A stretch of 33,872 bases of DNA from an uncultured Halieaceae bacterium. GTDB taxonomy: Bacteria > Pseudomonadota > Gammaproteobacteria > Pseudomonadales > Halieaceae. A program made the translations under genes and the position numbers. Positions within the stretch are counted from its first letter, which is position 1. Each line of letters opens with the position of its first letter. The notes below the pieces were generated by a model. That model saw nothing but the letters and a program-made list of their open reading frames with translations, did not search any database and was not told the origin of the DNA. Location of the stretch: assembly GCA_913048495.1 (NCBI GenBank), contig CAJWWA010000007.1, positions 1 through 33,872 on the forward strand, written 5' to 3'. This document shows positions 11,916-29,963 of the stretch, in pieces.

Positions 11916-12068
11916 GCCAGTCCCGGCGGAGCGGTTTGCGCGGAAGTAATGCCGGCTTGAGAAAAAAAGGATGCCCGCGCTGCGCCAGAGTAGGCAAGCT
12001 GTGTGGCGCAGGTGTCGGCCTCAGCGGCTGAAGCCCGCTTTCTAACAGGACTCAATGGCAATCCGGTT

Positions 12069-13325
12069 ATGCAGCGACTGCTGATAGAAAATGCAAACGT
12101 GTTTGACGGTTACCGCGACGAGCTTCTCGAAGGACTGCACCTGCTCATTGAGGACGGTGTTATCACGGGAGTTTCCGATGCCCCTGTACGAAGCCCTTCC
12201 ACAACGCGTATCGATGCCTCGGGTGCGACGGTCATGCCCGGGCTTATCGATGCACACGTCCACGTTACAGATTGGGGTGCTTCACCGGCGGAATTGCGCA
12301 ATACACCCTCCAGCTTAACGGCGCTTCGCGCAGCCCGCAGTCTGAACAACATGCTGCATCGCGGCTTTACGACCGTGCGCGACGCATGCGGTGCCGATTT
12401 CGGTCTCGCGGTTGCTATCGAAGACGGTTTGATCGAAGCACCAAGGTTGTACTTTGTTGGACAGGCATTGAGCGCCACTGGTGGTCATGGTGATTTCCGG
12501 GACCCCGGTGATGACACGCGAGACGATCCTTGCGGTTGTTCCGCCCGCGGTCTGAGCCTGGTCGTGGACGGAGAGACCGAAGTAAGGCGCGCTGCTCGCA
12601 ACGAGCTGAGGAAGGGTGCCCACGCGATCAAGATCATGGCGTCCGGCGGTGTTGCGTCGCCGACGGATCCGATTGCGAACCTGCAGTTTTCTGAGCGCGA
12701 GATGCGTGCAATTGTCGAAGAAGCCCGCTTCTGGGGTCGCTACGTCATGGCTCACGCCTATACGGCAGAGGCTATCGGGCGTTGCCTGGAGTGCGGCGTG
12801 CGATCCATAGAGCACGGTAATCTGATCGATCGCGAAGCCGCGGAACTCGCCGCCAGTCTCGATGCCTTCGTGGTCCCGACCCTCGTCACCTACCAGGCGA
12901 TGGAGGAGCGAGGCGAGGAGATCGGAATGTCGCGGGTCAGCCTCGACAAACTCCGGGATGTACGCAAGGCCGGGCTGCAGAGTCTTGAATACCTGAAGGA
13001 AGCCCGTGTGAAAACGGGCTTCGGTACCGACCTTTTCGGCGATCTTCAATCCGAGCAGGCCCGGGAGCTCTCGATCCGTGCCGAAGTTGAATCGAACGTC
13101 GAAGTCCTGCGTTCAGCGACGTCGGTTAATGCCGAGCTGCTTCAGATGAAGGGGCGTCTCGGGTGTATACGCGAAGGTGCGTTGGCGGATCTGCTGATCG
13201 TCGATGGCAACCCGCTTGAGGACCTCGGCAAGCTGCAACAGGGCGCCCGGTACATCACGCACATTATCAAGGGTGGCCGCGTCGTTGGCGGGAGTGCCTC
13301 CGGCGTCAGTCCTGCCGCAGGTTAA
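12069..13325 (+). CDS. COG1228-type metal-dependent amidohydrolase
   Basis: A 418-residue amidohydrolase-superfamily enzyme with a complete binuclear metal site: HVH (H63, H65), the bridging lysine in AIKIMASGG (K188, carbamylated in homologs), H229 in VMAHA, H249 in SIEHG, and catalytic D321 in GFGTD. GGHGD (138-142) is a further mark of the imidazolonepropionase/prolidase-like COG1228 group, whose members include Xaa-Pro and Xaa-Arg/Lys dipeptidases. A small beta domain is formed by both termini. No signal peptide is seen, so it should act in the cytoplasm. The start is uncertain: ATG 12069 fits family N-termini, while GTG 12003 is an in-frame alternative. The NicX-like gene follows after 28 bases, implying an operon. 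Confidence 0.88.
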   Translation: MQRLLIENANVFDGYRDELLEGLHLLIEDGVITGVSDAPVRSPSTTRIDASGATVMPGLIDAHVHVTDWGASPAELRNTPSSLTALRAARSLNNMLHRGFTTVRDACGADFGLAVAIEDGLIEAPRLYFVGQALSATGGHGDFRDPGDDTRDDPCGCSARGLSLVVDGETEVRRAARNELRKGAHAIKIMASGGVASPTDPIANLQFSEREMRAIVEEARFWGRYVMAHAYTAEAIGRCLECGVRSIEHGNLIDREAAELAASLDAFVVPTLVTYQAMEERGEEIGMSRVSLDKLRDVRKAGLQSLEYLKEARVKTGFGTDLFGDLQSEQARELSIRAEVESNVEVLRSATSVNAELLQMKGRLGCIREGALADLLIVDGNPLEDLGKLQQGARYITHIIKGGRVVGGSASGVSPAAG

Positions 13326-13353
13326 TCAAGTTCAGGAAGGAGTAATAGACCCC

Positions 13354-14433
13354 ATGTCAGAAACGACCGATGTCAGTACAGCGCTAAAGCCCGAGTTCCT
13401 GGTCGTCGTCGACAAGATCTACCGGGAGATGTGTAACCTCCAACCCGGTACCAAGGTTCTTATCATCACCGACTCGCGAACGCCCCGACACGTAGTGTCG
13501 GTGTTCATGGGGTATGCCATGGCGATGGGTGCCGATGTTTCGGTTTCCGAGAATCCGATGCCACCGCCGCCCACGCTGCAGCCTGGCTACGAGTGGAACT
13601 CGATGGTAAAGGCCGCCGCCGCGCAGGCGGAGCTGATCGTGGACCTTGCCGTTGGCTATGCCGATTTCATGGCAGAGGCCGTTGAGCGGGGCGCGCGCAT
13701 TATGAGCCCCGGAGATGGTACCGGCGGCCACCATATCGAGGATACGCTGATCCGGACAATGCTGGCGGCTGACATCCACGCACTGCGCCGGGAAGCAATA
13801 GCGATTGCGAAGCTGTTCACCGAGGCGTCTACACTGAGAATGACCTCGGAAGAGGGTACTGATTTCGAGATGGATATCAGCGGCCTCGAGGGCATCTCTT
13901 CGGACGAGTTCCTCTGGGACCCCGACAAGAAACAGATGACCGGCACCTGGGCGGCACTGCCCCCGGCGGCCCCGGGCATCGTGATTCCCAAGGGTCGTGG
14001 GAACGGGGTGATGGCAGTGGACGGTTTTCTTCTTTATGAACCGGCCTATGATCACGAGAAGCCGACGGGTCCGGTATTCCTTACCTTCGAGAACGGAAAG
14101 ATCGTTGATGTGGCCGGAGAGCCATTGTTTGCCGGTCGCTTGCGGCACTGGTTCGACGAGCAGCCCGATGATTCGGCGCAATATGGCCCTGTGCATCTGA
14201 ACCTCGGCCTGAACTCGCGCGCAATGCTGACGCAGCATCCAGAGTTCGAGAAACTCCGCGGAACCGTTTGTTGTGGCATTGGCGACAGCAGCTTGTTGAC
14301 CAGGATGTGGCACGGGTCGGATCTGGAGCCGAACATATCTCACATGCACTGGGACATTCTGCTCATGCGGCCGACGCTGCTGCTCGATAGCGCGCCGGTT
14401 TGCAGGGACGGCTTTATCGTCGCTGAAACCTGA
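13354..14433 (+). CDS. NicX/M29-like metalloprotein, copy 1
   Basis: A 359-residue protein related to the group that contains M29 aminopeptidases and the 2,5-dihydroxypyridine dioxygenase NicX. Candidate metal ligands are H281 (PVHLNLGLN) and the HxD pair H332/D334 (MHWDILLM), which correspond by my recollection to the iron triad of NicX. The position where M29 peptidases carry a metal-binding Glu appears as IPKGRGNG (211-218), with no Glu. That argues against a classic two-metal aminopeptidase, but the activity is unproven. It is paralogous to the protein at 28878-29963. AAGGAG lies 11 bases before ATG 13354. It is probably co-transcribed with the amidohydrolase gene, and its stop is 6 bases from that of the convergent MFS gene. 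Confidence 0.75.
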   Translation: MSETTDVSTALKPEFLVVVDKIYREMCNLQPGTKVLIITDSRTPRHVVSVFMGYAMAMGADVSVSENPMPPPPTLQPGYEWNSMVKAAAAQAELIVDLAVGYADFMAEAVERGARIMSPGDGTGGHHIEDTLIRTMLAADIHALRREAIAIAKLFTEASTLRMTSEEGTDFEMDISGLEGISSDEFLWDPDKKQMTGTWAALPPAAPGIVIPKGRGNGVMAVDGFLLYEPAYDHEKPTGPVFLTFENGKIVDVAGEPLFAGRLRHWFDEQPDDSAQYGPVHLNLGLNSRAMLTQHPEFEKLRGTVCCGIGDSSLLTRMWHGSDLEPNISHMHWDILLMRPTLLLDSAPVCRDGFIVAET

Positions 14434-14439
14434 GCCCGC

Positions 14440-15621
14440 TCAGGTGGCGGTCCCGGCCCGGGAATCGTCGTCAAGACGTTTGATGTCGTATCGTTTGACC
14501 AGCGCCGTGAGCGCCAGCGCGATAGCGAAGCCGGCAATGGACGTGAAGTAAAGCCGGCTGAAACTATCGCCATGCAGCAGGTAAGACGCGACCAGGGCAC
14601 CCAGGGAGTACCCGGCCATCAGCAGGAAGTTTGCTGCAGCAACCGCGCGTCCAGAGGGCGCAAGGAGTGCCGCAAAGGCCACGAAGTAGGGCACGACGAA
14701 GGTGATACTCGCGTTGAACACTGCTGACGCGACCCCAAAAACAAGCGGTGAGGTGAACGCGGCAAGCGCAACAGTGGCGAGCGTGATGGCAATCAGTCCG
14801 GCAATGATCGGAATCACGTGGCCAAGCCTGTCGCCCAGTATCCCTGCGCCGCACATGCCGATGAGTGCCGCGGCGAGTCCGGGTCCCAGTATCGCGCCAG
14901 AGTCCTCTGGAGAGAGGCCCAGAGAAACCCCGATACGCTCGAGGTATACCCAGACGCCGGTGTTGGCCGCGTTGAACAGAAAGAGCGCCACCATGATCGC
15001 GGTAACCGGAATAGCTATGGCGGGGAACTGATCGCGGGTCGGCGCCGATACTGCATTGCGAGGTCCAACGCCGATGGGGAAGAGCCGATGCATTGGCAGC
15101 GCAACCAGGGCGAGTAGCGCAATACCGCCAAAAACACCCTCCAGACCGATTGAACGATACAACGTGGGCAGGCCGGCCAGGCCCGCTCCGCCGAGGATGA
15201 AGGGCATCCCGCACAGCACGGCATAGGTGCGCTCCATCCAGGGCATCGTCATGAGAGCCACAGCGCACACGGTGAACGAAAGACCCGCTGCGATACCGTT
15301 GACGAACCAGTTGATGCTAAGCAGCCACGGCCAGGGGCTGAGTGTTGCAGCGCCTAAGCTGGTTACGATCACGATCAGCATGCAACCGGCAATCGTCCTG
15401 CGAAGGTCCCAGCCGCCCCGGTGAATGACAAGTATCGCCAGGAGACTAGCGAGTGTGGCTCCAATATTGCTGTAGGAAATGAGCCGTCCCGCGAAGGCCT
15501 CGCTGAAGCCCTGGTAATCCACAAGCGCGCCGACGAAGGACGGTGCGGCCGCCATGTAGACATTGCACAGGCCTCCAAGAAGGAGGATTGCTGCTATCCT
15601 GTGCAGCACATGACCGCGCAT
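14440..15621 (-). CDS. MFS transporter, paralog B
   Basis: A 393-residue major facilitator permease, the same length as the MFS protein at 10734-11915 and similar along its whole length (NVYMAAAPSFVGALVDYQG, GAILGPGLAAALIGM, VFNASITFVVPYFVAF). About 12 helices are predicted by eye, with a central loop near 183-200 (PRNAVSAPTRDQ). The substrate is unknown. The start is ATG 15621 with only a weak GCAGGG upstream. It is convergent with the NicX-like gene and divergent from the TonB-receptor gene, so together with paralog A it brackets the amidohydrolase-NicX pair. The two copies may import related substrates or form an import/export pair. Confidence 0.9.
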   Translation of the reverse strand: MRGHVLHRIAAILLLGGLCNVYMAAAPSFVGALVDYQGFSEAFAGRLISYSNIGATLASLLAILVIHRGGWDLRRTIAGCMLIVIVTSLGAATLSPWPWLLSINWFVNGIAAGLSFTVCAVALMTMPWMERTYAVLCGMPFILGGAGLAGLPTLYRSIGLEGVFGGIALLALVALPMHRLFPIGVGPRNAVSAPTRDQFPAIAIPVTAIMVALFLFNAANTGVWVYLERIGVSLGLSPEDSGAILGPGLAAALIGMCGAGILGDRLGHVIPIIAGLIAITLATVALAAFTSPLVFGVASAVFNASITFVVPYFVAFAALLAPSGRAVAAANFLLMAGYSLGALVASYLLHGDSFSRLYFTSIAGFAIALALTALVKRYDIKRLDDDSRAGTAT

Positions 15622-16108
15622 GGTACGACTACCGCCCTGCTGCTGACACGGGCAGCAAAACCAAGGTTTGCCACTTCCTCATAGCGCTGGTGACCCTCGA
15701 GTGGTGGGCGTACTCCTGCAGGCCCCGATTGCTTGAGATGACGCGCGGCATTCCGTTACCCCCTTCGCTTCGATCAGGCCCGGACCGACCCTTAGCGGGT
15801 GTCTGCTCTTCCGGCGGCTGCGGTGGAGTCGCTGCTTTTGCGGCAGGATAGCCTGCGGCTGGCCGGGAACCCATGCCCCGATTCAAAAGCCCGCTTGTTC
15901 AATTGATGAAGTCGTTTGCAATGGAGTCCGTACTGCTCCGCCAAGGTGCGCCAGGCACCAGCTAGGTGCAGATGCCGCTCGTTCAGCTTTAGACAATGTC
16001 GGCTTGAGCAAAAACGAATTTACCGGGCGCTGCCGGGGCGGCTAGTTTGATCGAGAGTCAGGAGATGAACCTTTTTCCATTACTGTTACTCGAACCGGGG
16101 CCGCCCAG
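15622..16108. other. Divergent control region, no gene seen
   Basis: These 487 bases separate the divergent MFS and TonB-receptor genes. No frame here has convincing coding character. GGTGC at 15945-15949 and 15965-15969 flanks GCACC at 15955-15959, with starts spaced exactly 10 bases, which would place them on one face of the helix; this could be a regulator site or a small hairpin. No confident -35/-10 pair was found. Confidence 0.4.
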
Positions 16109-18514
16109 ATGCAACCAGTATTTCACCAACTAAACCGCCACCTGCGGAAGACGCCAATAGCGCTGGGGGTCGCCCTGGCGCTCCAGCAACCCCCTGCGGT
16201 TGCACAGGAGGCTCGGCTTGAGGAGGTACTCGTTACCGCAACTCGCCGCGCGGTAACGGTGCAGGACATCCCCTACAACATCAACGTGGTCACTGGCGAA
16301 CAGCTGCGCGCGGCCGGCATTTCCGATGTTGTGGAGCTGGTCAGACTGGTCCCGGGCCTGACTATTCTCAACGAGGGGCCGCGGGTGTCGGGCAACCGCA
16401 ATACCTACAATCTGCGTGGTATGAACGTCGATGCGGCCGGCAACGAGGATGACAACCCCCGCATCAGCCAGGCTACCGTTTCAACGTACCTCGGCGAGGT
16501 GCCGATGTTCTTCCCCATGAAACTGGTGGACATAGCCAGAGTCGAAGTGCTGCGTGGACCCCAGGGCACGCTGTACGGCGCGAGCTCGGTTGGCGGTACC
16601 ATCCGCTTCATGCCCGAGGCGCCGCGGCTGGATGAAACTACGGTCCAGCTCATGGGTGAGTTTTCCCAGACCGAGGAGTCAGGTGATCTCAACTATGACG
16701 GCAATATCGTCGTTAACCTTCCCCTGTCCGAGCAGCTGGCCTTCCGCGGTTACTTCGGACAGGAGCGGCTTGCCGGTTTTATCGACGCCGTTGACCTTAT
16801 TGAGCAGACCGGAACGCCGCGCAACCCGGGTGAAATCGTCTTGCAGGATCCGGACGACATTCTTGGCAGTCCGGCGATTCGCGGCGGGGTCATCAAGGAT
16901 TCCAACGAATCCGAACAGACTTATTTCCGCGGCAGCCTGTTGTTCCGCCCCAGCGACCTTATCGAAGCCACGTTGAACTACCATTTTCAGGAAGTCGAGG
17001 TCGACAACCGCTACGAAGACAATCGCTTTTTCGGGGACGGAGAGGATTACAAGACCTACAAGGCCTTCACTGATCCACAGGACGGTGAACTTTCCCTCAT
17101 CAATCTCGATGTGCAGGCGGACCTGGGGTTCGCGCGGTTGACCTCTGCTACAGGCTATACAGAAATCGACATCGACAGCGTTTCGGATTCCTCCGGCTTT
17201 TTGCGCACCAATTTGCCGCAGTACTACTTCGGCTTCCCGCGTCTGTTTGCCCCCTTGAGCCGCAGTCAGTCCACTGAGACCTTCACCCAGGAACTGCGTC
17301 TTGTATCCACGGGGGACGGCCCCATCGACTGGGTGGCGGGTGTCTTCTACATGGAGAACAAGCTTGATTTCACCATGTTGCAGATCGCCTCTGGACTGAA
17401 CGACTACACCAACGCCTATTTCGGCACACCCGCACCGGTGGATTTTACCGACGTGCTGGCGCGCGGGGGAACAAACCAGGAGTTCACCGACCTGGCCGCT
17501 TTTGCTGAAGTAACCTGGCATGTCACCGACCGCTGGCAGGTTACCGGCGGAATCCGGGTTTTTGACCAGGAACTGGACGGATCCTCCGGCATACCGCTTC
17601 CTTACGCGTCGAGAACGTTCGAGTACTACTACTACGGCACGGCGACCGATGATTTTCTGCTCGGTGGCATCAACCCGACCGAGTACGAAGTGGACGAGGA
17701 GATCCTGAAGTTCAACACCTCGTTCGAAGTTTCTGACGACATGCTGATCTTCGCGACCTTCGCCGAGGGTTTTCGGCCTGGCGGGGCCAACCAGCTCCCC
17801 GAAACCGACCCCTTTGGGAACGACAACTCGGCAATCCTCGATTTTCAGCCGGATGTCGTTGATAACTATGAGGTGGGTATCAAGGGCACGATCGATGATC
17901 GTTTCACCTATACCGCGACCGCGTTCTACATGGACTGGGACGATTTTCAGGCAACGCTCGCTTCACCTTTCGGAATCGCCTATATCGACAATGTGCCCGG
18001 GGCGGAATCGAAGGGTCTGGAGCTCGAACTGAGCGGTTACCTCGGCAGCAGTTTCGACTTTACGCTGGGATATTTCTACGTGGATGCGGAGATCAGCGAA
18101 GACTTCAATTTTGTGGCGGGGGACCCCTCCTCTGTGATCGAAGCAGGCACGTCGCTGCCGGCGGTTCCAGAGCACGAATTTTTCGGCGCGGCGAACTACC
18201 GGGTTGGTTTCGGCGATTCCACGCTAACTTTTCACCTGGACGCCTCTTACCGCGGGGAGACCCGCAGCAACTTCCGTGACCTGCCGAATTACCCGCTCGA
18301 GAACTTTGCAGAGCTTGATGCTTTCACGATCTGGAATGCCTCGGTAAGCTGGGAGACCGGACCGTACCGCGTCTGGCTGTTCGGTGAGAATCTGGGCAAT
18401 GAACGCGGGGAAACACTTGTAACAGCGGAGGATGCCTACGGCCCTCGTGACCAGGCACGGGGAGTGACGAGGCCGCGCACCTTCGGCCTACGATTCAGCT
18501 ACTTCTGGGAGTAA
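16109..18514 (+). CDS. TonB-dependent outer-membrane receptor
   Basis: An 801-residue outer-membrane active transporter. A signal peptide (about 1-33, ending PPAVAQ) is followed by a TonB box-like segment EEVLVTATR (38-46). A plug domain (about 50-170) holds the family blocks VPGLTILNEG, YNLRGMN and VEVLRGPQGTLYGASSVGGTIRF. The remainder is a 22-strand-type barrel with alternating aromatic strands, ending FGLRFSYFWE; the final Glu after Trp is slightly unusual, since most barrels end in an aromatic residue. Substrate specificity cannot be read. The start ATG 16109 is preceded only by GGGG. The TPR-sulfotransferase gene follows after 46 bases. Inside this block it is the obvious entry route for a large or scarce substrate. 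Confidence 0.93.
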   Translation: MQPVFHQLNRHLRKTPIALGVALALQQPPAVAQEARLEEVLVTATRRAVTVQDIPYNINVVTGEQLRAAGISDVVELVRLVPGLTILNEGPRVSGNRNTYNLRGMNVDAAGNEDDNPRISQATVSTYLGEVPMFFPMKLVDIARVEVLRGPQGTLYGASSVGGTIRFMPEAPRLDETTVQLMGEFSQTEESGDLNYDGNIVVNLPLSEQLAFRGYFGQERLAGFIDAVDLIEQTGTPRNPGEIVLQDPDDILGSPAIRGGVIKDSNESEQTYFRGSLLFRPSDLIEATLNYHFQEVEVDNRYEDNRFFGDGEDYKTYKAFTDPQDGELSLINLDVQADLGFARLTSATGYTEIDIDSVSDSSGFLRTNLPQYYFGFPRLFAPLSRSQSTETFTQELRLVSTGDGPIDWVAGVFYMENKLDFTMLQIASGLNDYTNAYFGTPAPVDFTDVLARGGTNQEFTDLAAFAEVTWHVTDRWQVTGGIRVFDQELDGSSGIPLPYASRTFEYYYYGTATDDFLLGGINPTEYEVDEEILKFNTSFEVSDDMLIFATFAEGFRPGGANQLPETDPFGNDNSAILDFQPDVVDNYEVGIKGTIDDRFTYTATAFYMDWDDFQATLASPFGIAYIDNVPGAESKGLELELSGYLGSSFDFTLGYFYVDAEISEDFNFVAGDPSSVIEAGTSLPAVPEHEFFGAANYRVGFGDSTLTFHLDASYRGETRSNFRDLPNYPLENFAELDAFTIWNASVSWETGPYRVWLFGENLGNERGETLVTAEDAYGPRDQARGVTRPRTFGLRFSYFWE

Positions 18515-20177: not shown

Positions 20178-21080
20178 TCATTCCGCGTTGACGCCAAGCT
20201 TGTCGAGAAAAAGACGCGACAGGTTGGAGAGCCTTCCGGATTTGCGCTTGACAAGGCAGAAACCGAAGCTGCGCCGGAGCCTGGTCGGCAGCAGTGCCCG
20301 CAGTTCGCCGCGTTGCTGCCATAAATCGGCGTAATGGGTCGGCAGGTAGCCGAGATACTTTCCGGAGAGGATCAGGTAGGTAACACCCTCGATGTAGGGT
20401 GAGGCGGCGACCTCGTTGAAGGAGAAAGGCGCTTCCCAGCCGTCGAGTCCCTCAACATAGCCCCAGGTCACATAGCCGGCTTTGCCGAACTCTTCCTCGG
20501 TGATGGCGTCGTCATCACGCGTAAAAAAGGGGTGTTTCCTGGCGCAGTAGAGGAGGTGCTCCTCGTCGAACAGCGGTATGTAGTCGATGCTCTCCAGCTG
20601 GTGGTGGAACAACCCGACTGCGATATGCAGGCGCCCGTCCAGCACCTGCTGTTCCAGTTCTACCGCGCCTCCCACATAGATGTTGATCCTGGCATCCGGG
20701 GCCGCCTCGGAGAAGGCAGCAATGGCGTCGCGTATACGGCTGTCCTCGTGGGTGACCGTATTGTCGATAAGGCCGAGCCTGAGTTCCCCGGTAAGCCGTC
20801 CGCGGGCTTCCGCTACGTCGTTGCGGAAATCCTCAAGCGCGGCAAACAGCTTCTCACTGGCCTCAAGCACGGCGATGCCATCCTCAGTCAGTTCGAAGTT
20901 GCCGCGACCGCGTTCGCAGAGGCGGCATCCAAGGCGCACCTCGAGCTGTGCCATCTGGGTGCTGATGGCCGACTGGCTGACATTGAGTTGCGCCTGGGCC
21001 GCCGAGAAACCGCCGCACTCGGCAATGACCTGGAAGATCCTGAGCAGCTTGATATCGCTGTCGTGAATCTGCCCCAGCAT
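20178..21080 (-). CDS. LysR-family transcriptional regulator
   Basis: A 300-residue LysR regulator. The N-terminal winged helix-turn-helix is clear (about 10-67: LLRIFQVIAECGGFSAAQAQ, then SQSAISTQMAQLEVRLG, CERGRGNFELTEDG). A linker helix and an effector-binding domain follow (about 95-295). It is divergent from the DUF1989-carboxylase-allophanate hydrolase operon, with 127 bases between starts, the usual arrangement for a LysR protein that controls its neighbour and itself. I infer that the effector is the substrate or an intermediate of that operon (guanidine, carboxyguanidine or allophanate). Confidence 0.93.
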   Translation of the reverse strand: MLGQIHDSDIKLLRIFQVIAECGGFSAAQAQLNVSQSAISTQMAQLEVRLGCRLCERGRGNFELTEDGIAVLEASEKLFAALEDFRNDVAEARGRLTGELRLGLIDNTVTHEDSRIRDAIAAFSEAAPDARINIYVGGAVELEQQVLDGRLHIAVGLFHHQLESIDYIPLFDEEHLLYCARKHPFFTRDDDAITEEEFGKAGYVTWGYVEGLDGWEAPFSFNEVAASPYIEGVTYLILSGKYLGYLPTHYADLWQQRGELRALLPTRLRRSFGFCLVKRKSGRLSNLSRLFLDKLGVNAE

Positions 21081-21084
21081 GTTT

Positions 21085-21104
21085 GTCAGTTTCCCAGAGA
21101 TGAC
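21085..21104. promoter_or_regulatory. Candidate LysR binding dyad
   Basis: GTCA (21085-21088) and TGAC (21101-21104) form a dyad with a 12-base centre just upstream of the LysR start and about 100 bases before the operon start. The arms are short, and no perfect T-N11-A box is present, so this is only a candidate. Confidence 0.2.
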
Positions 21105-21150
21105 CGCTTTCCGCTAAGTGGATGTGGGGTTGAAGAAAAAGTGATGTTAA

Positions 21151-21178
21151 TTGCTGGTTTCGCGCCAGACAATATTCT
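21151..21178 (+). promoter_or_regulatory. Candidate sigma-70 promoter of the guanidine operon
   Basis: TTGCTG (21151-21156) and TATTCT (21173-21178), 16 bases apart, could be the -35 and -10 elements. The -10 lies 29 bases before the GTG start at 21208, leaving a short leader with AGGGGAT as ribosome-binding site. A weak -35 would fit an activator-dependent promoter. Confidence 0.35.
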
Positions 21179-21207
21179 GCCGTGAGTCGCAAATAGGGGA
21201 TAACACT

Positions 21208-21948
21208 GTGGTTAGCGTTACGCCAGAGGCTGAATGCCTTTATGCCGACCGGCTGGAGGGCGGCTCTCACTGGTCGCTGGTGATGCGCCGCGGCACCAGG
21301 CTGCGGCTTGTCGACATCGAAGGCGGTGCCAACCTGGGGATGCTGCTTTACAACCCGTTGGACAAGCTTGAACGCTACAACGCCCCGGATACCCTCAAGT
21401 GCCAGCACACCTTTCGCCTGGGGCAGGGCAACTGCCTGTTTTCCGATATGGGCCGTATCTTCTGCTCTTTAATATCCGATGATCTTTCGGGGCACGATAC
21501 GGTTTGCGGCAATCTGAGCGAGCGTGCGCTGCACGAGAAGTACGAGGTGCGCACCTTCCAGGAGGCCCGCAATGAGCGCTCTGTTAGCGGGGAGTATGCC
21601 TTTCTGATTGAGCTCGGCAAGCACGGCCTGGGAGAAAGAGACCTCGCGGCGAATGTCAACTTCTTCAGCAAGGTGCTTACCGATGAGGCCGGAAACCTGT
21701 CCTATGTGACCGATTACAGCGGGCCTGGCAGCGCTGTCGAACTTCGCTTTGAGATGGATTCGCTGGTGATCATGCACAGCTGTCCGCACCCGCTGAATCC
21801 CTCGCCGGAATACCCCCGGCGCCCGGTGGCCTTTGAAGTGCTGAGGGCCGATCCGCCCTCTAAAGATGATCCCTGCTTGAACCACTGCGAGGAAAACCGA
21901 CGCGGCTTCCAGAACAACGCGATCTATCACTTGCAGGGAGGTTACTGA
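21208..21948 (+). CDS. DUF1989 protein, carboxyguanidine deiminase subunit (UAAP2-like)
   Basis: A 246-residue DUF1989 protein of the type long called urea carboxylase-associated protein 2. Published work has reassigned this pair as carboxyguanidine deiminase (CgdAB), which converts carboxyguanidine to allophanate and ammonia. Visible family features are GHDT (95-98), NVNFF (149-153), SGPGSAVEL (171-179) and MHSCPHPLNP (189-198). The same blocks recur in the next gene, so the two subunits are paralogs. A Cys-rich tail (DPCLNHCEEN, 221-230) is present only here. The start is GTG 21208 behind AGGGGAT; the frame is open further upstream, but a TTG at 21151 would fall on the promoter. Confidence 0.88.
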   Translation: MVSVTPEAECLYADRLEGGSHWSLVMRRGTRLRLVDIEGGANLGMLLYNPLDKLERYNAPDTLKCQHTFRLGQGNCLFSDMGRIFCSLISDDLSGHDTVCGNLSERALHEKYEVRTFQEARNERSVSGEYAFLIELGKHGLGERDLAANVNFFSKVLTDEAGNLSYVTDYSGPGSAVELRFEMDSLVIMHSCPHPLNPSPEYPRRPVAFEVLRADPPSKDDPCLNHCEENRRGFQNNAIYHLQGGY

Positions 21949-21949
21949 C

Positions 21950-22591
21950 GTGTTGCAGGAGAGCAGGCTGGACGCCGCCGGGGCCCGGTTTCGAAAGCGC
22001 ATAGACGCGGGGGACTTCTGGTTTGAGCGGATTGCCTCGGGGCAGACGCTCCGCATCGTTGATATCGAGGGAAACGAGGCGGCAGATGTCCTGTTTTTCT
22101 CGGCGGCGGATCCCGCGGAGCGCTACTCCGCTGTAGACACCGTGCGCGGGCAGGGCAATATCTACCTCGGGTACGGAAGCGTGTTGCTAAGCACCCGGGG
22201 CAACCCGCTGCTTGAGATTACCGCGGACACGGTCGGACGGCATGACACGCTGGGCGGAGCCTGCGCGGGTGAGTCAAACACCGTTCGCTACGCTCACGAC
22301 CGAAAGTGCATGCACTCCTGTCGCGACAACTGGATGTTCGCGATCTCGCAGCGGCCGGAGTTCGCCGTGTCCAAGCGCGACATCACGCATAACATCAACT
22401 TTTTCATGAACGTACCGGTCTCGCCGGATGGCGGGCTCCATTTCGACGATGGCATATCCGGTCCCGGCAAGTATGTGGAGCTGGTGGCAAGGATGGACGT
22501 GCTGGTGTTGATCAGTAATTGTCCGCAGCTCAACAACCCCTGCAGCGGATTCAATCCAACACCGCTCGAGGTGCTTGTCTGGGATGAATAA
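21950..22591 (+). CDS. DUF1989 protein, carboxyguanidine deiminase subunit (UAAP1-like)
   Basis: A 213-residue DUF1989 protein, the shorter partner of the preceding gene. Shared blocks are GRHDT (96-100), HNINFF (147-152), SGPGKYVEL (170-178) and SNCPQLNNP (189-197). Further cysteines occur at 105, 120, 124 and 198, some likely metal ligands given the family's predicted Zn site. With the upstream gene it should form the heteromeric carboxyguanidine deiminase. Its GTG start (21950) begins one base after the upstream stop codon, with GGGAGG as ribosome-binding site. Its end overlaps the carboxylase start by 8 bases, so the genes are translationally linked. Confidence 0.88.
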   Translation: MLQESRLDAAGARFRKRIDAGDFWFERIASGQTLRIVDIEGNEAADVLFFSAADPAERYSAVDTVRGQGNIYLGYGSVLLSTRGNPLLEITADTVGRHDTLGGACAGESNTVRYAHDRKCMHSCRDNWMFAISQRPEFAVSKRDITHNINFFMNVPVSPDGGLHFDDGISGPGKYVELVARMDVLVLISNCPQLNNPCSGFNPTPLEVLVWDE

Positions 22592-25500
22592 GTCGTCAGC
22601 CGCCAGCCGGGTGCTCATTGCCAATCGAGGTGCTGTCGCCGTGCGCATCCAGCGCACCCTGCGGGATATGGGCATCGACCCGGTGGTGGTCTACCACGAA
22701 GCGGACCGCGAGTCCCTGCACGTGCAGCAGTCGCCGCTGCACTTCTCCCTGGGCTCGGGCAGCGTGCAGGACACTTACCTGAATGCCGGTCGTCTTATCG
22801 AGACTGCGCTGGAGGCCGGGGCCTGGGCAGTGCACCCAGGCTACGGTTTTCTCAGCGAGAACGCCGAGTTTGTCCGGGCCTGCGAGGCCGCGGGCCTGGT
22901 TTTTCTCGGCCCCACGCCGCAGCAGATCGAGGCTTTCGGCCTCAAGCACCGTGCGCGCGAACTCGCCCGGGGCAGCGGTGTGCCCCTTGTCCCCGGCACT
23001 GGCGAACTGGCCTCCGTCGAGGAGGCGTTGGCTGCCGCCGGGAATATCGGCTACCCGGTAATGCTCAAGAGTTCGGCCGGCGGCGGTGGCATCGGAATGG
23101 CCGTCTGTCGCGATGCCGATGCGTTGAATCGAGCGTGGGATTCGGTGCGGCAGGTGAGTCGCAGTAACTTTGCAGACTCCACACTTTTTCTGGAGAAGTT
23201 CATCGAGCGGGCCCGGCATATTGAGGTTCAGGTCTTTGGCGACGGCGCGGGCCGGGCCCTGGCTATCGGAGAGCGGGACTGTTCTGCCCAGCGGCGCAAT
23301 CAGAAAGTGCTCGAGGAGACACCGGCGCCGGGTCTCGACGCTGCCCAGCGCCAGCGTCTCCACGACACAGCTGTGCGCTTGCTGGAGGCAGTGAGCTACC
23401 GCAGCGCCGGCACCGTTGAATTCATTCTCGATGATGACACGGGTGAATTCTATTTCCTGGAGGTGAATACCCGCTTGCAGGTCGAACACGGCGTGACCGA
23501 GGAAGTCTGGGGTGTGGACCTCGTGCGCTGGATGGTCGAACTGGGACAGGGTGTCCTTCCTGAACTCACCACGCTGGCGGCGGGACTCGCTCCGCGCGGA
23601 CACGCCATCCAGGCGCGTGTTTACGCCGAGGATCCCTGGAAGGACTTCCAGCCCTGTGCGGGACTGTTAACCGAGGTCAGTCTGCCAGAGCCCGTGGGCG
23701 GAGCGCTGCGGGTAGATCACTGGATCGAGACCGGGGTCGAGGTGAGCGGCCTGTTCGACCCCATGCTGGCAAAGCTCATCGTGCGGGCGGAGGATCGTGA
23801 GACCAGCCTCAAGCGGTTGCTGGAGTCGGTAGAGGCGAGCCGGATAAGCGGTATCGAAACGAATCTCGCTTACCTGGGCGCGCTGCTGCGATCAGAGCCG
23901 GTGCGCGAGGGCCGGTGCCTGACTTCGACGCTCGCTGGCATCAGGGTGCCGTCGCAGGCCATCGAAGTCATCTCCGGCGGCACGCTGACGACGGTCCAGG
24001 ACTACCCCGGCCGAACCGGTTACTGGGGCGTCGGGGTACCGCCCTCGGGACCCTTCGACAGTTTGAGTTTCCGGCTGGGCAATCGTCTGCTGGGCAATCC
24101 CGAAAATGCTGCAGGCCTCGAGATAACCCTGCAGGGGCCTGAACTTGCCTTCCGGTCTCCGCGCTGTTTCGTGCTCGCCGGCAGTGTTTTCGAGGCCTTC
24201 ATCGATGATGAGGCCGTTGCTCCCTGGCAGGTGGTGTGCGCGCAGGCCGGGCAGACGCTGCGGATCGGTTCTCCGCGCGGCCGCGGCGTCCGTGTCTACC
24301 TGCTGGTGGAGGGAGGCCTTGACTGTCCCGAGTACCTCGGCTCGCGGAGCACATTCACCCTCGGCCGGTTTGGTGGTCACGCGGGTCGTGCGCTTCGCGC
24401 GGGTGATGTCCTGCGCCTGTCCTGCCCTCATGGCTCCGCTAAACCGGGAGTAATACTGCCCGAGGCGCTGACCCCGGAAGACAGTGAGACATGGCAGCTG
24501 CACGTAATTCCCGGTCCCCAGGGGAGTACCGAGTACTTCAGCGAGGATTACCTGCAGGCGTTCTACAGCGCCGACTGGCGGGTGCACTATAACTCCAGCC
24601 GCACGGGCGTTCGCCTCGTGGGCCCGAAGCCCGACTGGGCCCGAAGCGACGGCGGTGAAGCGGGCATGCACCCCTCGAATATCCATGACAACGCCTATGC
24701 CATTGGCACGATAGACTTTACCGGAGACATGCCGGTAATACTTGGACCCGATGGCCCCTCGCTGGGGGGGTTCGTCTGTCCCGCGACGGTTATCGAGGCG
24801 GATCTGTGGAAGATCGGTCGGCTGTCCGCTGGCGACCTGGTACGGTTTGTCCCGGTTACGCTTGAAGGTGCTGTGGCCGCGCTCGAACGGCAAAAGCGTG
24901 AGATTGCGGAGCTGCGGGCGATCCCCTCGCGACTCGTCCGCGCACCGGCAGTTGAACCGGAAATGCACCGCTTCGAGGCCAACGGTGTCGCTATCACGGT
25001 ACGGCGCAGTGGTGATGGCTGGTTGCTGGTGGAGTATGGGCCGCCGGTGCTGGATATCCGCCTGCGTTTCCACGCTCACCGGCTGATGCTATCCCTGCAG
25101 CAGGAGCCGCTACCCGGCATGCTCGAGCTCACGCCGGGGATACGAAGCCTGCAGGTTCGCTATTCGCCGCTGGCGGTAGAGGCACCGCGTCTCCTGCAGG
25201 CTCTGGTGGATCGCATCCTCACCGTGGCCGAGCAACCCGCCGAAACAGTTAGTTCCCGCATCATCCATCTACCACTTTCCTGGGACGACCCGGCCTGTCA
25301 CGCGGCTATCGAAAAGTACCAGAAGTCGGTCCGTGCCGATGCGCCCTGGTATCCTTCAAACATCGAGTTCATCCGACGCATCAACGGGCTGGACTCGGTC
25401 GACGACGTGCGCCGGATCGTTTTCGACGCAAGCTATCTCGTCATGGGCCTGGGTGACGTCTATCTCGGCGCCCCGGTAGCTGCGCCTTTGGATCCGCGGC

Positions 25501-26198
25501 ACCGGCTGGTAACGACCAAGTACAATCCGGCGCGGACCTGGACGGCGGAGAACTCCGTGGGTATCGGCGGCTCCTACCTCTGCGTCTACGGTATGGAAGG
25601 CCCCGGGGGCTACCAGTTCGTTGGTCGCACCCTGCAGATGTGGAACCGCTATCGCTCTACACCGGAATTCAGTCGCCGCTGGCTGCTGAAGTTTTTCGAC
25701 CAGCTGCGGTTCTTCGAGGTCAGTGCCGAAGAACTGCAGCAGATCCGGGCAGATTTCCTGGTGGGGAACTACCCGCTGCAGGTGGAGCAGGCCGAGTTTG
25801 ACCTCGAGGCCTACGACCGGTTCCTGTCGGCTAACCGGTCAGGGATCGAGGCCTTCGAGGCATCGCGCAACCGGGCCTTCGATGCGGAGCTGAATGCCTG
25901 GAAGGCGGCAGGGGAGTTTCACTATGAGCCGGCCCAAGTGCCGAGGCCCCCGGCCGAGGAGCCGATGCCGGCGCACTTCCGGAAAATCGAAAGTCCGGTG
26001 TCGGGCAGCGTATGGCAGGTGGTCGTCGACACGGCGCAACGCGTCGAGGCGGGCGAGTGCCTGCTGATCCTCGAGTCCATGAAGATGGAGATCGAGGTGA
26101 AGGCGCCGGTGGCCGGGACGGTGCGGCACATCGCGCGAGCTGCGGGAACGGCGGTGCTGCCGGGTCAGTCGCTGGTCTACCTGGAGCCCATGGTATGA
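22584..26198 (+). CDS. Biotin-dependent guanidine (urea) carboxylase
   Basis: A 1204-residue single-chain carboxylase. Residues 1-450 are biotin carboxylase (HPGYGFLSEN 84-93, KSSAGGGGIGM 162-172, EVNTRLQVEHGVTE about 292-305). Residues about 458-760 are a KipA/AHS2-like domain (SGGTLTTVQDYPG). Residues about 800-1020 are a KipI/AHS1-like domain, with GMEGPGGYQFVGRT. The C-terminal biotin carrier has ESMKMEIEV, and K1167 is the biotin site. ATP, bicarbonate and guanidine would give carboxyguanidine. The presence of both DUF1989 deiminase genes upstream favours guanidine over urea. Literature ties the preference to one Asp/Asn position in the carboxyltransferase domain, which I could not place with certainty here. 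The ATG at 22584 is preferred over an in-frame TTG at 22575. Confidence 0.9.
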   Translation: MNKSSAASRVLIANRGAVAVRIQRTLRDMGIDPVVVYHEADRESLHVQQSPLHFSLGSGSVQDTYLNAGRLIETALEAGAWAVHPGYGFLSENAEFVRACEAAGLVFLGPTPQQIEAFGLKHRARELARGSGVPLVPGTGELASVEEALAAAGNIGYPVMLKSSAGGGGIGMAVCRDADALNRAWDSVRQVSRSNFADSTLFLEKFIERARHIEVQVFGDGAGRALAIGERDCSAQRRNQKVLEETPAPGLDAAQRQRLHDTAVRLLEAVSYRSAGTVEFILDDDTGEFYFLEVNTRLQVEHGVTEEVWGVDLVRWMVELGQGVLPELTTLAAGLAPRGHAIQARVYAEDPWKDFQPCAGLLTEVSLPEPVGGALRVDHWIETGVEVSGLFDPMLAKLIVRAEDRETSLKRLLESVEASRISGIETNLAYLGALLRSEPVREGRCLTSTLAGIRVPSQAIEVISGGTLTTVQDYPGRTGYWGVGVPPSGPFDSLSFRLGNRLLGNPENAAGLEITLQGPELAFRSPRCFVLAGSVFEAFIDDEAVAPWQVVCAQAGQTLRIGSPRGRGVRVYLLVEGGLDCPEYLGSRSTFTLGRFGGHAGRALRAGDVLRLSCPHGSAKPGVILPEALTPEDSETWQLHVIPGPQGSTEYFSEDYLQAFYSADWRVHYNSSRTGVRLVGPKPDWARSDGGEAGMHPSNIHDNAYAIGTIDFTGDMPVILGPDGPSLGGFVCPATVIEADLWKIGRLSAGDLVRFVPVTLEGAVAALERQKREIAELRAIPSRLVRAPAVEPEMHRFEANGVAITVRRSGDGWLLVEYGPPVLDIRLRFHAHRLMLSLQQEPLPGMLELTPGIRSLQVRYSPLAVEAPRLLQALVDRILTVAEQPAETVSSRIIHLPLSWDDPACHAAIEKYQKSVRADAPWYPSNIEFIRRINGLDSVDDVRRIVFDASYLVMGLGDVYLGAPVAAPLDPRHRLVTTKYNPARTWTAENSVGIGGSYLCVYGMEGPGGYQFVGRTLQMWNRYRSTPEFSRRWLLKFFDQLRFFEVSAEELQQIRADFLVGNYPLQVEQAEFDLEAYDRFLSANRSGIEAFEASRNRAFDAELNAWKAAGEFHYEPAQVPRPPAEEPMPAHFRKIESPVSGSVWQVVVDTAQRVEAGECLLILESMKMEIEVKAPVAGTVRHIARAAGTAVLPGQSLVYLEPMV

Positions 26199-28009
26199 GC
26201 GGGCTGCCTACACTGCCCGATATTCCAAAGCTTGAAGCCGGCTACCGGAAAGGGTGCTTTACGCCGCGGCAGGTCATTGCGGATGCGCTTGCCAGGGCGG
26301 CCCGCTTTGAGGACAGGAATATTTTCACCTTCCGCCCCGAAATAGACGCCCTGATGCCCTGGCTGTCGAGGCTGGAGGATGCTGAGCCCGAGTCCCTGCC
26401 CCTCTTCGGCATTCCGTTCCTGGTGAAGGACAACATCGATGTGGCCGGCATGCCGACCACCGCGGCCTGCGTACCTTTCGCCTACACCCCGGACCGCAGC
26501 GCGTTCGTCGTCCAGCGCCTTGTGGACGCAGGTGCGATTCCAATCGGCAAGACCAACATGGATCAATTCGCTACCGGGCTGGTGGGCACGAGATCGCCCC
26601 AGTGGGGCGTATGCCGCAACGCCCTGGATCCCGGGTGGATTGCCGGCGGCTCCAGTGCGGGCTCAGCGGTGGGTGTGGCGCTCGGCCTCGCCAGCTTCTC
26701 GCTTGGCACAGACACGGCGGGGTCAGGGCGCGTGCCCGCCATGTTGAACAACGTCGTTGGCCTCAAGCCCAGCCGGGGCCTGCTTTCCATGAGCGGCATC
26801 GTGCCCGCCTGCCGCTCGCTGGACTGTCCCAGCGTGTTCGCACTTACTGCAGCCGATGCCAGGCGGGTTTTCGAGGTGGCCGTAGACCGTGATCGGGAAG
26901 ACCCCTGGTCTCGCGAAAATCCCTTTTCCAACTCGGTCCGAGCCGCGGGTTTGCCGACGGGCACCCTTCGGCTGGGCGTACCGATCGAATCACAGCTTGA
27001 ATTCTTCGGCGACACTGGCAATGCGGGCTGCTATGCCGCCGCGGTGGAGGCATGGATTGAACTCGGTGCGGAGACGGAGGAGGTCGATATCGCGCCACTG
27101 CTTGCAGCGGCCCGCCTGCTCTACGATGGTCCCTGGGTTGCGGAACGGTATCTCGCGGTTGAGGACGTTTTCGAGCAGCTCGGTGATGCTATGGACCCCG
27201 CCGTGCGCGCTATCCTCGAGCCGTCGCCCGATTTGCGCACCGTGGATGCCTGGCGCGCAGCTTATGCCCTGCAGCGCTGCCGTGTTGCCGCCGAGCGGCT
27301 CTTCGACGGCATAGACGCGCTGCTGTTGCCCACCGCACCGACCAGCTACCGCATTGAGGAGGTGCTGGCGGAGCCGCTTGCCCTGAATACCCGTATGGGT
27401 TTCTACACCAATTTCATGAATCTGCTGGATCTTTGCGGTGTAGCGGTACCGGCGGGTATGAATACTGCCGGCCGGCCCTTTGGTGTCACGCTCGCAGCCC
27501 CGGCCATGCGCGACCAGGCGCTGCTGGGTCTTGCTGAATGGTGGCAGGCCAGCCAGGGGCTGCCCGCAGGTGCGACCGGGCAGGTTCCTGCGCTTGTTAC
27601 ACCATCGCCTTCCCGGTATTCCGCCCGCGTCGATGTCGCCGTGTGCGGCGCTCATCTGGACGGTCTTCCCCTGAACTGGCAGTTGGTCGAGCGGGGCGGG
27701 AAGCTCGTTGAAAAGACCCTGACGATGAGCTGCTACCGGCTCTATGCCCTGCCCGGCGGACCTCCCCTGCGGCCGGGGCTGCTGCGCGACGAAAATGCCG
27801 GCACCGCTATCGAGGTCGAAGTCTGGTCTCTGCCAGCCACTGAATTCGGCAGCTTCGTGGCAGCGATTCCGCGACCGCTGGGCATCGGTCAGGTCGAGCT
27901 GGAGTCCGGGTGCTGGGTCAGTGGTTTCCTGTGCGAGCCAGCGGGGCTGGAGGGAGCCACGGATATCAGCTCCCTGGGCTCATGGCGAGCCTATCTGGCG
28001 ATGCAGTAA
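26195..28009 (+). CDS. atzF: Allophanate hydrolase
   Basis: A 604-residue AtzF-type amidase that hydrolyses allophanate to ammonia and CO2. The amidase-signature triad is present: K78 (FLVKDN), cis-Ser S153 (GGSSAGSA) and nucleophile S177 (GTDTAGSGR), with the expected 24-residue spacing between the serines. The C-terminal domain (about 445-604) is the one found in AtzF and in urea amidolyases, not in plain amidases. The ATG overlaps the carboxylase stop as ATGA. It completes the four-gene pathway and is the last gene of the operon. A G-C-rich imperfect hairpin lies near 28062-28078, but it has no T-run. Confidence 0.95.
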   Translation: MSGLPTLPDIPKLEAGYRKGCFTPRQVIADALARAARFEDRNIFTFRPEIDALMPWLSRLEDAEPESLPLFGIPFLVKDNIDVAGMPTTAACVPFAYTPDRSAFVVQRLVDAGAIPIGKTNMDQFATGLVGTRSPQWGVCRNALDPGWIAGGSSAGSAVGVALGLASFSLGTDTAGSGRVPAMLNNVVGLKPSRGLLSMSGIVPACRSLDCPSVFALTAADARRVFEVAVDRDREDPWSRENPFSNSVRAAGLPTGTLRLGVPIESQLEFFGDTGNAGCYAAAVEAWIELGAETEEVDIAPLLAAARLLYDGPWVAERYLAVEDVFEQLGDAMDPAVRAILEPSPDLRTVDAWRAAYALQRCRVAAERLFDGIDALLLPTAPTSYRIEEVLAEPLALNTRMGFYTNFMNLLDLCGVAVPAGMNTAGRPFGVTLAAPAMRDQALLGLAEWWQASQGLPAGATGQVPALVTPSPSRYSARVDVAVCGAHLDGLPLNWQLVERGGKLVEKTLTMSCYRLYALPGGPPLRPGLLRDENAGTAIEVEVWSLPATEFGSFVAAIPRPLGIGQVELESGCWVSGFLCEPAGLEGATDISSLGSWRAYLAMQ

Positions 28010-28145: not shown

Positions 28146-28781
28146 TCAATCGAGATACCGGGCGAGATAGGCTTCCTGCATGGCGTACAGTTCTTCCAGA
28201 TAACGCTGTGCTTCATTGCCCCGGAGCTGGAAGAAAGTGTCGCCACCTGCATTCAGCGCGCTGACAGCAGCGTGCGCGACTGCCTGCAGCTGCGCTCTTG
28301 AATGCCGGCAGCCGCGCGCGACCAGCGCGCTGCTGAAGCGCGCACACATTTCTTCGAAAATCGACTGGTGTAAGTCCCTCAGTTCCGGAGTGGCGTTGAT
28401 CGCCTGCAGTACGCTCACGCTGCCTGGTACTTTATTCGCCTTGCGCATCCAGTTGTCGATGGTTCTGCGCAGCACCGGTCGCCAGTCGACGCTGCGGTCT
28501 GCCAGGGCAGCATAGAAGGGCTCGTTCCAGCTGTTCCACTGTACCGCCAACTGCTCGGTCAGCGCCGCAATGACTGCGTACTTGTTGGGGAAGTAACGGT
28601 AGACAGTGCGCACCCGCAGCCCGGCCTGCTCGGCCAGCAGGTTGGTGTTGAAGCCGTCAATGCCGGTCTCGTCGAGCAGCTGCGCAGCGGTCTCGATGAT
28701 CAGGTGCCAGGTTTCCCGGGCACGGGCCTGCACGGGTTCGGCCCGGCGTTGGAGAGCTTTGGAGGGCTTCGCGTTGGCCAT
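28146..28781 (-). CDS. TetR-family transcriptional regulator
   Basis: A 211-residue TetR-type repressor. The helix-turn-helix is clear at about 46-68 (TNLLAEQAGLRVRTVYRYFP), preceded by the usual first helix (ARETWHLIIETAAQLLDETG). The C-terminal ligand and dimerisation part (about 75-211) is all-helical with no recognised ligand. The start chosen is ATG 28781; an open frame continues upstream across the repeat region but is not expected to be coding. It is divergent from the second NicX-like gene (96 bases between starts), and a tandem repeat in the gap is a plausible operator. Its stop converges on the allophanate hydrolase stop, with 136 bases between. Confidence 0.9.
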   Translation of the reverse strand: MANAKPSKALQRRAEPVQARARETWHLIIETAAQLLDETGIDGFNTNLLAEQAGLRVRTVYRYFPNKYAVIAALTEQLAVQWNSWNEPFYAALADRSVDWRPVLRRTIDNWMRKANKVPGSVSVLQAINATPELRDLHQSIFEEMCARFSSALVARGCRHSRAQLQAVAHAAVSALNAGGDTFFQLRGNEAQRYLEELYAMQEAYLARYLD

Positions 28782-28796
28782 GGTCGGGTAGTGTAC

Positions 28797-28825
28797 TTGA
28801 CGTCGAGTCAATAAGGGAGTAAATA
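28797..28825 (+). promoter_or_regulatory. Candidate promoter of NicX-like copy 2
   Basis: TTGACG (28797-28802) is a five-of-six -35 match, and TAAATA (28820-28825) lies 17 bases downstream as a weak -10. TTGAC (28797-28801) and GTCAA (28807-28811) also form a dyad around the -35. The -10 falls inside the first operator repeat, so a bound TetR protein would block it. Confidence 0.35.
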
Positions 28826-28855
28826 CTTCCCTTAAAGGTAGTAAATACTTAACTT
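28814..28855. repeat. Tandem 20-bp repeat, probable TetR operator
   Basis: Two copies of a 20-base unit occur at 28814-28833 and 28836-28855, matching at 17 of 20 positions, with a 22-base period (two helical turns). Each holds AGTAAATACTT, whose core AGTA-AA-TACT is a perfect dyad. The first copy also has AAGGGA/TCCCTT as outer arms, off-centre by half a base. The repeats sit between the TetR gene and the second NicX-like gene. I infer two TetR dimer sites that control both promoters. Confidence 0.6.
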
Positions 28856-28877
28856 TTGCCTGCTGCGAGGATACTTC

Positions 28878-29963
28878 ATGGCGCACATTTCACCCGACAC
28901 CGCTTCTCGCCTGAAGCCTGATCTGCTGCCTGTCGTCCATACGCTCTATACCCAGATGTGCAACCTGCAGCCGGGGGAGAAAGTGCTGGTGATCAGCGAT
29001 GCCCGCACACCTTTCGAGCTGGTAGCAGCCTTCCAGGGAATGGCCATGACGCTGGGCGCAGAAGCCGTCGTCATCGAGGCCTCGATTCCCTACGGCGGGC
29101 CCACCTACCAGCCGGGCGCTTCCTGGTCTTCAATGGTGGCAGCAGCGGCGCTGGAGGCGAACCTGATCATCGACCTTGCCGTGGGCTACGCGGAGTTTAT
29201 CTCCGCTGCCATGGACCGCGGTGCTCGGGTGCTGATGCCGGGCGACGGGATCGGTGGTCCCTACCTTGATGACATGCTGATCCGCAACATCCGTGACGTT
29301 GATATCCACGCGCTCCGACGCAGCGCCGGGCGCATCGCGCAAAGGTTTACCGAAGCATCGAAGATCAGCCTCATAACGGGCGGTTCGGACCTGTTGGAAA
29401 TCGATATTTCCGGCCTGCGGGGCGAGCCGGTAGACGGCTTCCTCTGGGACCCTGACAAGGGAGAGTTCAAGAGCAACTACGAGATCATGCCGCCCGCCCA
29501 GCCGGGGGTCATGATTCCGAAAGGCCGCGCCAACGGAACCGTCTGCGTAGAGGGCGTGGTGCTGTGGCACCAGGTTTACCATGAGTGCCCCCGTGAGGAC
29601 CTGCGGCTGACCTTCGAGAACAGCCGGCTTGTGGACCTGCAGGGTGACCGCAACCTGGCCAATCGAGTGCGCCGCTGGCTGGAGACGCTTGGCGACGACG
29701 GTGCCTGGGAAGGCCCGAATCACTTCAATATCGGCATCAACCCCAATGCGATGCTCAGCCAGAACCAGGAATGGGAGCGAATCTACGGTTCCGTTACCTG
29801 TGGTATGGGTGACATGAGCACTGCCGGAAAACTGCTCTCGGCCGGTTCAAGCATGGAGTATGCGGCCTCCAGCGTGCATTGGGACTGGACTATTCTGCAG
29901 CCGGAAATCCTTCTCGACGATGAAGTGCTGGTTCGTGGCGGTGTCGTCCACGACGCAGAGTGA
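28878..29963 (+). CDS. NicX/M29-like metalloprotein, copy 2
   Basis: A 361-residue paralog of the protein at 13354-14433. Shared blocks are QMCNLQPGEKVLVISDARTP (27-46), IIDLAVGYAEF, RVLMPGDGIGG, DVDIHALRR, ISGLRGEPVDGFLWDPDK and IPKGRANG. Candidate metal ligands are H282 (NHFNIGIN) and H334/D336 (VHWD), the same layout as copy 1 and NicX. The M29 Glu position is again Arg (KGRANG, 215-220). These features fit a single-metal enzyme better than a two-metal aminopeptidase, but activity is unproven. GCGAGG precedes ATG 28878. It is controlled, by inference, by the divergent TetR gene. Nearest neighbours are the guanidine operon and a GNAT gene. Confidence 0.75.
   Translation: MAHISPDTASRLKPDLLPVVHTLYTQMCNLQPGEKVLVISDARTPFELVAAFQGMAMTLGAEAVVIEASIPYGGPTYQPGASWSSMVAAAALEANLIIDLAVGYAEFISAAMDRGARVLMPGDGIGGPYLDDMLIRNIRDVDIHALRRSAGRIAQRFTEASKISLITGGSDLLEIDISGLRGEPVDGFLWDPDKGEFKSNYEIMPPAQPGVMIPKGRANGTVCVEGVVLWHQVYHECPREDLRLTFENSRLVDLQGDRNLANRVRRWLETLGDDGAWEGPNHFNIGINPNAMLSQNQEWERIYGSVTCGMGDMSTAGKLLSAGSSMEYAASSVHWDWTILQPEILLDDEVLVRGGVVHDAE

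Follow-up and report, generated by a model that had tools for sequence, protein, structure and literature searches.

Predicted tandem operators for a TetR-family regulator between its gene and a divergent NicX-like gene in an uncultured Halieaceae bacterium

In the Tn10 tet region, TetR dimers bind both tetO1 and tetO2, and no cooperativity is indicated (PMC3037858). For two other TetR-family proteins, QacR and CprB, binding to DNA as a dimer of dimers has been described (PMC4150764). Divergent control with paired operators, in the style of Tn10 tetR/tetA, is an ordinary, known arrangement. Another reference point for the locus described here is NicX, a 2,5-dihydroxypyridine 5,6-dioxygenase with the four iron ligands His265, His318, Asp320 and Ser302 (PMC7910607). 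What is new at our locus is the operator predicted for a TetR clade; a search of a literature library for operator sequences returned nothing relevant and no described binding site for this clade.

The window, i.e. the whole stretch of 33,872 nucleotides that was analysed, carries a gene for a TetR-family regulator (P0001) on the minus strand and a NicX-like gene (product P0002) on the plus strand. If tetR starts at the ATG at 28781, the 96-bp gap at 28782-28877 is exactly the space between these two genes. The features of this region are as follows:

28146-28781, minus strand: tetR, encoding P0001 (211 aa), a TetR-family regulator with HTH GFNTNLLAEQAGLRVRTVYRYFPNKYAV
28797-28825, plus strand: promoter candidate for the NicX-like gene, made up of TTGACG (28797-28802), 17 bp, TAAATA (28820-28825); a weak consensus match, inferred
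28813-28833, no strand: predicted operator site 1, AAGGGAGTAAATACTTCCCTT, with the 16-bp core GGGAGTAAATACTTCC at 28815-28830
28823-28845, minus strand: best-scoring promoter-like hexamers for tetR, TTTACT from 28845 and TTTACT from 28823, reading leftward; weak candidates
28835-28855, no strand: predicted operator site 2, AAGGTAGTAAATACTTAACTT, with its core at 28837-28852 and one half-site degraded
28867-28870, plus strand: GAGG, 7 nt ahead of the ATG of the NicX-like gene and likely its ribosome-binding site, as read from the sequence
28878-29963, plus strand: gene of the NicX-like enzyme P0002 (361 aa), divergent from tetR and its putative target

The gap has a GC content of 43%, compared to 65% for the whole window, in agreement with the AT-richness noted in the initial annotation. 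Sites 1 and 2, which take up a large part of the gap, constitute a 21-nt direct repeat (18/21 identical, period 22), of which the 20-base units described earlier, matching at 17 of 20 positions, are the same unit minus its first base. The core AGTAAATACTT indeed recurs at the 22-base period that had been reported, at 28818-28828 and 28840-28850. Shuffling the 96-bp gap under a dinucleotide model gave a repeat of equal quality once in 20,000 trials, and at spacings up to 60 bp no further pair in the window attained 18/21. In the whole 3.52-Mb genome, AGTAAATACTT has two occurrences, both in the tetR/NicX-like gap, so that the scattering of the repeat over the genome, which had been named beforehand as an outcome speaking against an operator, was not seen. 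Each unit is an imperfect palindrome with AGTA-AA-TACT at its centre. Within a 20-bp frame, 7 of 10 base pairs are symmetric in site 1, compared to 5 of 10 in site 2, which has a lost half-site, TACTTAA; the 10-bp core is the same in both copies. Because each repeat is palindromic by itself, the two would represent two complete dimer sites and not two half-sites. This refines the two-dimer operator originally proposed, as each repeat forms a palindrome by itself and not one arm of a shared palindrome, and as the second copy clearly matches less well.

The candidate -10 hexamer TAAATA of the NicX-like gene falls within operator site 1, and the minus-strand hexamers of tetR are located in both operator sites. 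The overlap between repeat and candidate -10 that had been claimed thus holds in position, but the promoter itself is weak, and a consensus promoter scanner reported none. An inverted repeat TTGAC-N5-GTCAA, which may be due to chance, lies over the candidate -35 at 28797-28811.

P0001 matches the Pfam models TetR_N (2.6e-11, 43.6 bits, cut-off 24), covering the N-terminal HTH, and TetR_C_15 (5.5e-10, 40.3 bits, cut-off 26.8), covering the C-terminal ligand and dimer domain. Against the TetR equivalog it scores 34.9 bits with a cut-off of 265, which places it outside the tetracycline-specific TetR proteins, and its likeness to TetR is confined to the HTH region. A search of its own genome (G000) for close paralogs at E<=1e-10 returned the self-match only. 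Among relatives of P0001 the recognition helix (RVRTVYRYF) is variable.

To relate the palindrome to the regulator, the DNA beside TetR relatives was compared. The first of these comparisons used a motif taken from the window alone and are hence not circular. Among TetR relatives at 36-38% identity, the 10-mer AGTAAATACT is present without mismatch upstream of tetR in L005, L011 and L012, and AGTAATTACT stands upstream of tetR in L061. When the upstream regions of 98 relatives were searched for gapped palindromes, blind to the window motif, the top-ranked one was TAGT-N4-ACTA (19 loci compared to 0.13 expected) and the third-ranked one AGTA-N2-TACT (4 loci compared to 0.08 expected), both of which share their centre with the core in the window. 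The best match of the site 1 21-mer in these 98 regions was found in L003 (16/21, a score reached in 1 of 2000 shuffles), the closest TetR relative known when the 21-mer was matched. A search of the family of the L003 genome yielded closer relatives, with TetR E-values down to 1e-35. Upstream of tetR, L136 carries AAAGAAGTAAATACTTCTCTT (18/21 compared to the site 1 unit), L137 carries AAAGAAGTAAATACTTCTATT (17/21) and L138 has two sites 23 bp apart; GGAAGTATTTGCTTAC occurs in the upstream region of L139. Several relatives, e.g. L136 and L137, have a single site adjoining tetR, in L128, L004 and L036 the site lies elsewhere in the locus and not directly upstream of tetR, and no site was seen in L007 and L062.

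In a maximum-likelihood tree P0001 falls inside a 13-member clade (support 100/99), on a long branch whose exact position within the clade is unsure. The sites of this clade resemble GGAAGTAnnTRCTTCC. The clade motif (GGAAGTAnnTACTTCC; GGAAGTANNTACTTCC) is present at >=12/14 in 9 of 12 clade relatives, compared to none among 75 non-clade loci (Fisher 4e-10), a count which is partly circular because the 14-position motif was written after the clade sites had been seen. In the window, site 1 matches GGAAGTANNTACTTCC at 13/14 and site 2 at 11/14. The TAGT-N4-ACTA sites belong to the sister group of the P0001 clade. Across genomes, the recurrence of the palindrome thus tracks the TetR tree, amid quite different neighbour genes. 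As a further observation, eight Burkholderiales loci (L025, L031, L046, L050, L069, L074, L079 and L082) carry pairs of ATAGTnnnnACTAT palindromes upstream of tetR, mostly exactly 17 bp apart and in two cases 45-46 bp apart; these pairs are a conserved paired operator, as predicted from sequence, of the sister TetR clade.

Two features expected of a TetR-type operator are present here: a palindrome in the gap beside the regulator gene, and conservation of the site beside related regulators. Since the relatives carry the same kind of site by their own genes, the repeats are very probably the switch of P0001 for both itself and the enzyme: adjacent operators for the neighbouring TetR, which would repress the NicX-like gene and tetR until released by a ligand. 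The operator function for the adjacent TetR put forward in the initial annotation is in this way supported by the palindrome beside the relatives, which follows the TetR tree. We infer repression here and not activation. Each palindrome of ~16-20 bp, with the clade motif, would take one TetR dimer, site 1 acting as the strong operator and site 2 as the weaker one. As the centres are 22 bp apart, or about two helical turns, two dimers would lie next to each other along one face of the helix. Bound to both, TetR would cover the NicX-like promoter region as well as its own promoter and so repress both genes; since site 1 covers the candidate -10 and the tetR hexamers lie in both sites, binding would block both directions. 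A ligand, perhaps the substrate of the enzyme or a pathway intermediate, would release TetR. No NicX-like neighbour was found beside any TetR relative, and it is therefore solely the position of the NicX-like gene that points to its control by P0001. In L138 an ORF of NicX length lies opposite tetR; it was rejected as NicX-like, being unrelated to the NicX-like gene and without a family match.

Occupancy of both sites has to be weighed against the possibility, which we regard as rather doubtful, that in practice P0001 binds site 1 only, with site 2 adding little as a duplicate that has decayed or has an auxiliary role. Such a reading fits with the weaker agreement of site 2 with the clade motif, its lost half-site and the single site by tetR in L136 and L137. 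Conversely, the two copies agree in full over the 10-bp core, a phasing of 22 bp suits two dimers, and relatives also have tandem pairs, 23 bp apart in L138 and 17 bp apart in many Burkholderiales. Those 17-bp overlapping pairs look similar to a single cooperative dimer-of-dimers operator, for which CprB and QacR provide the precedent in the TetR family (PMC4150764). That both copies in the window form such an operator is nevertheless unlikely, as the dimers of QacR and CprB overlap on one 22-32-bp element and here two full palindromes abut with their centres 22 bp apart, a layout closer to that of Tn10, in which tetO1 and tetO2 are separate operators and no cooperativity is indicated (PMC3037858). 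Intergenic DNA binds other factors too, and the gap also holds the TTGAC-N5-GTCAA inverted repeat, but the motif follows the TetR relatives amid differing neighbours and tracks their tree, which makes it very improbable that the repeats serve a regulator other than the adjoining TetR. Finally, although short two-copy repeats often arise by chance, a chance or recent local duplication without function is hardly credible for a repeat with so few equals among its shuffles that recurs in relatives at 16-18/21. Adjacent operators for P0001, with site 1 as the stronger, are accordingly the reading we retain.

Further regulon members had been expected elsewhere in the genome, an expectation that was not borne out: besides site 1, no clade-motif site at <=1 mismatch is present in the own genome of P0001, and there is one site at two mismatches (C44). 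Relaxed motifs gave genome-wide mostly poor or in-gene matches, fewer than a reversed control. P0001 is probably a local regulator. In other genomes, the L127 site lies near genes for a SnoaL-like protein and a CmcJ/NvfI oxidoreductase, the L138 site near an amine oxidase gene and the L137 site near a haloalkane dehalogenase-like gene. Because the sites of the relatives adjoin such varied, catabolic-looking genes, the P0001 clade seems to be made up of local repressors that are redeployed on different genes. Separately, another part of the genome has a perfect palindrome, AAGCAAGTACTTGCTT, where an ORF begins (L151, G000:C35:2997-3014); it is possibly the site of another regulator.

P0002 itself had no match in Pfam, NCBIfam or a single-sequence PDB search. 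A profile built from P0002, its paralog in the window and two plasmid relatives (identity to P0002 <=31%) matches one PDB sequence, 7cn3 (E 4.3e-14), which is NicX; the homology to P0002 is distant and detected at profile level. The iron ligands His265, His318 and Asp320 of NicX align with H282, H334 and D336 of P0002, and for Ser302 and the substrate residues the alignment is unreliable in that region. An AlphaFold model of P0002 made from two sequences has a mean pLDDT of 34.8. With NicX as the sole PDB match of the profile and three iron ligands aligned, the label 'NicX-like' of the initial annotation is fair, and P0002 is probably a ring-opening enzyme. At E<=1e-20 no orthologs beyond the two copies of this genome were found in 139 other genomes of the family, and no matches beyond these two in phylum and class samples (399 and 369 genomes). 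The second copy, at 13351-14433 on the plus strand of the window, is 47-48% identical to P0002 and matches no Pfam model; no copy of the repeat is present upstream of it.

Adjoining the TetR/NicX-like pair, the window holds at 20178-28009 a LysR gene and genes for UAAP1 and UAAP2 (urea amidolyase-associated proteins), urea carboxylase and allophanate hydrolase. Further upstream, at 10734-18514, there are genes for an amidohydrolase, two MFS transporters and a TonB-type receptor. No Rfam element was found anywhere in the window, and the urea carboxylase genes hence have no guanidine riboswitch nearby. Together this gene set looks like a nitrogen-compound breakdown cluster. Tentatively, an uncharacterised TetR clade may have an operator class to itself, GGAAGTAnnTRCTTCC, akin to the ATAGTnnnnACTAT class used by the sister clade, and may here have been recruited to a NicX-like ring-opening enzyme in a urea carboxylase cluster, a cluster that could mark a new pathway for the breakdown of nitrogen heterocycles. 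The analysis provides a concrete operator prediction for the P0001 clade, with a usable regulator-operator pair, and links a NicX-like gene that is very rare with a predicted dedicated repressor, whose inducer would for that reason point to the substrate of the enzyme.

Compared to the described systems, P0002 has very low identity to Pseudomonas putida NicX, without a single-sequence match, and its setting in a urea carboxylase/allophanate hydrolase cluster is unlike that of the latter. With QacR and CprB the locus has in common two TetR-family dimers, here predicted, on one control region; their dimers overlap on one element, whereas the window has two separate, abutting palindromes. With Tn10 tetR/tetA it shares a tetR gene divergent from its target, two palindromic operators, here predicted, in the gap over the promoters, and a repressor that is expected to control both itself and the target. 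Operator centres in Tn10 lie ~30 bp apart, compared to 22 bp in the window. The locus thus has the divergent genes and the two predicted operators of Tn10-like divergent control, with a different operator sequence and with a NicX-like enzyme as target in the place of a tetracycline efflux pump.
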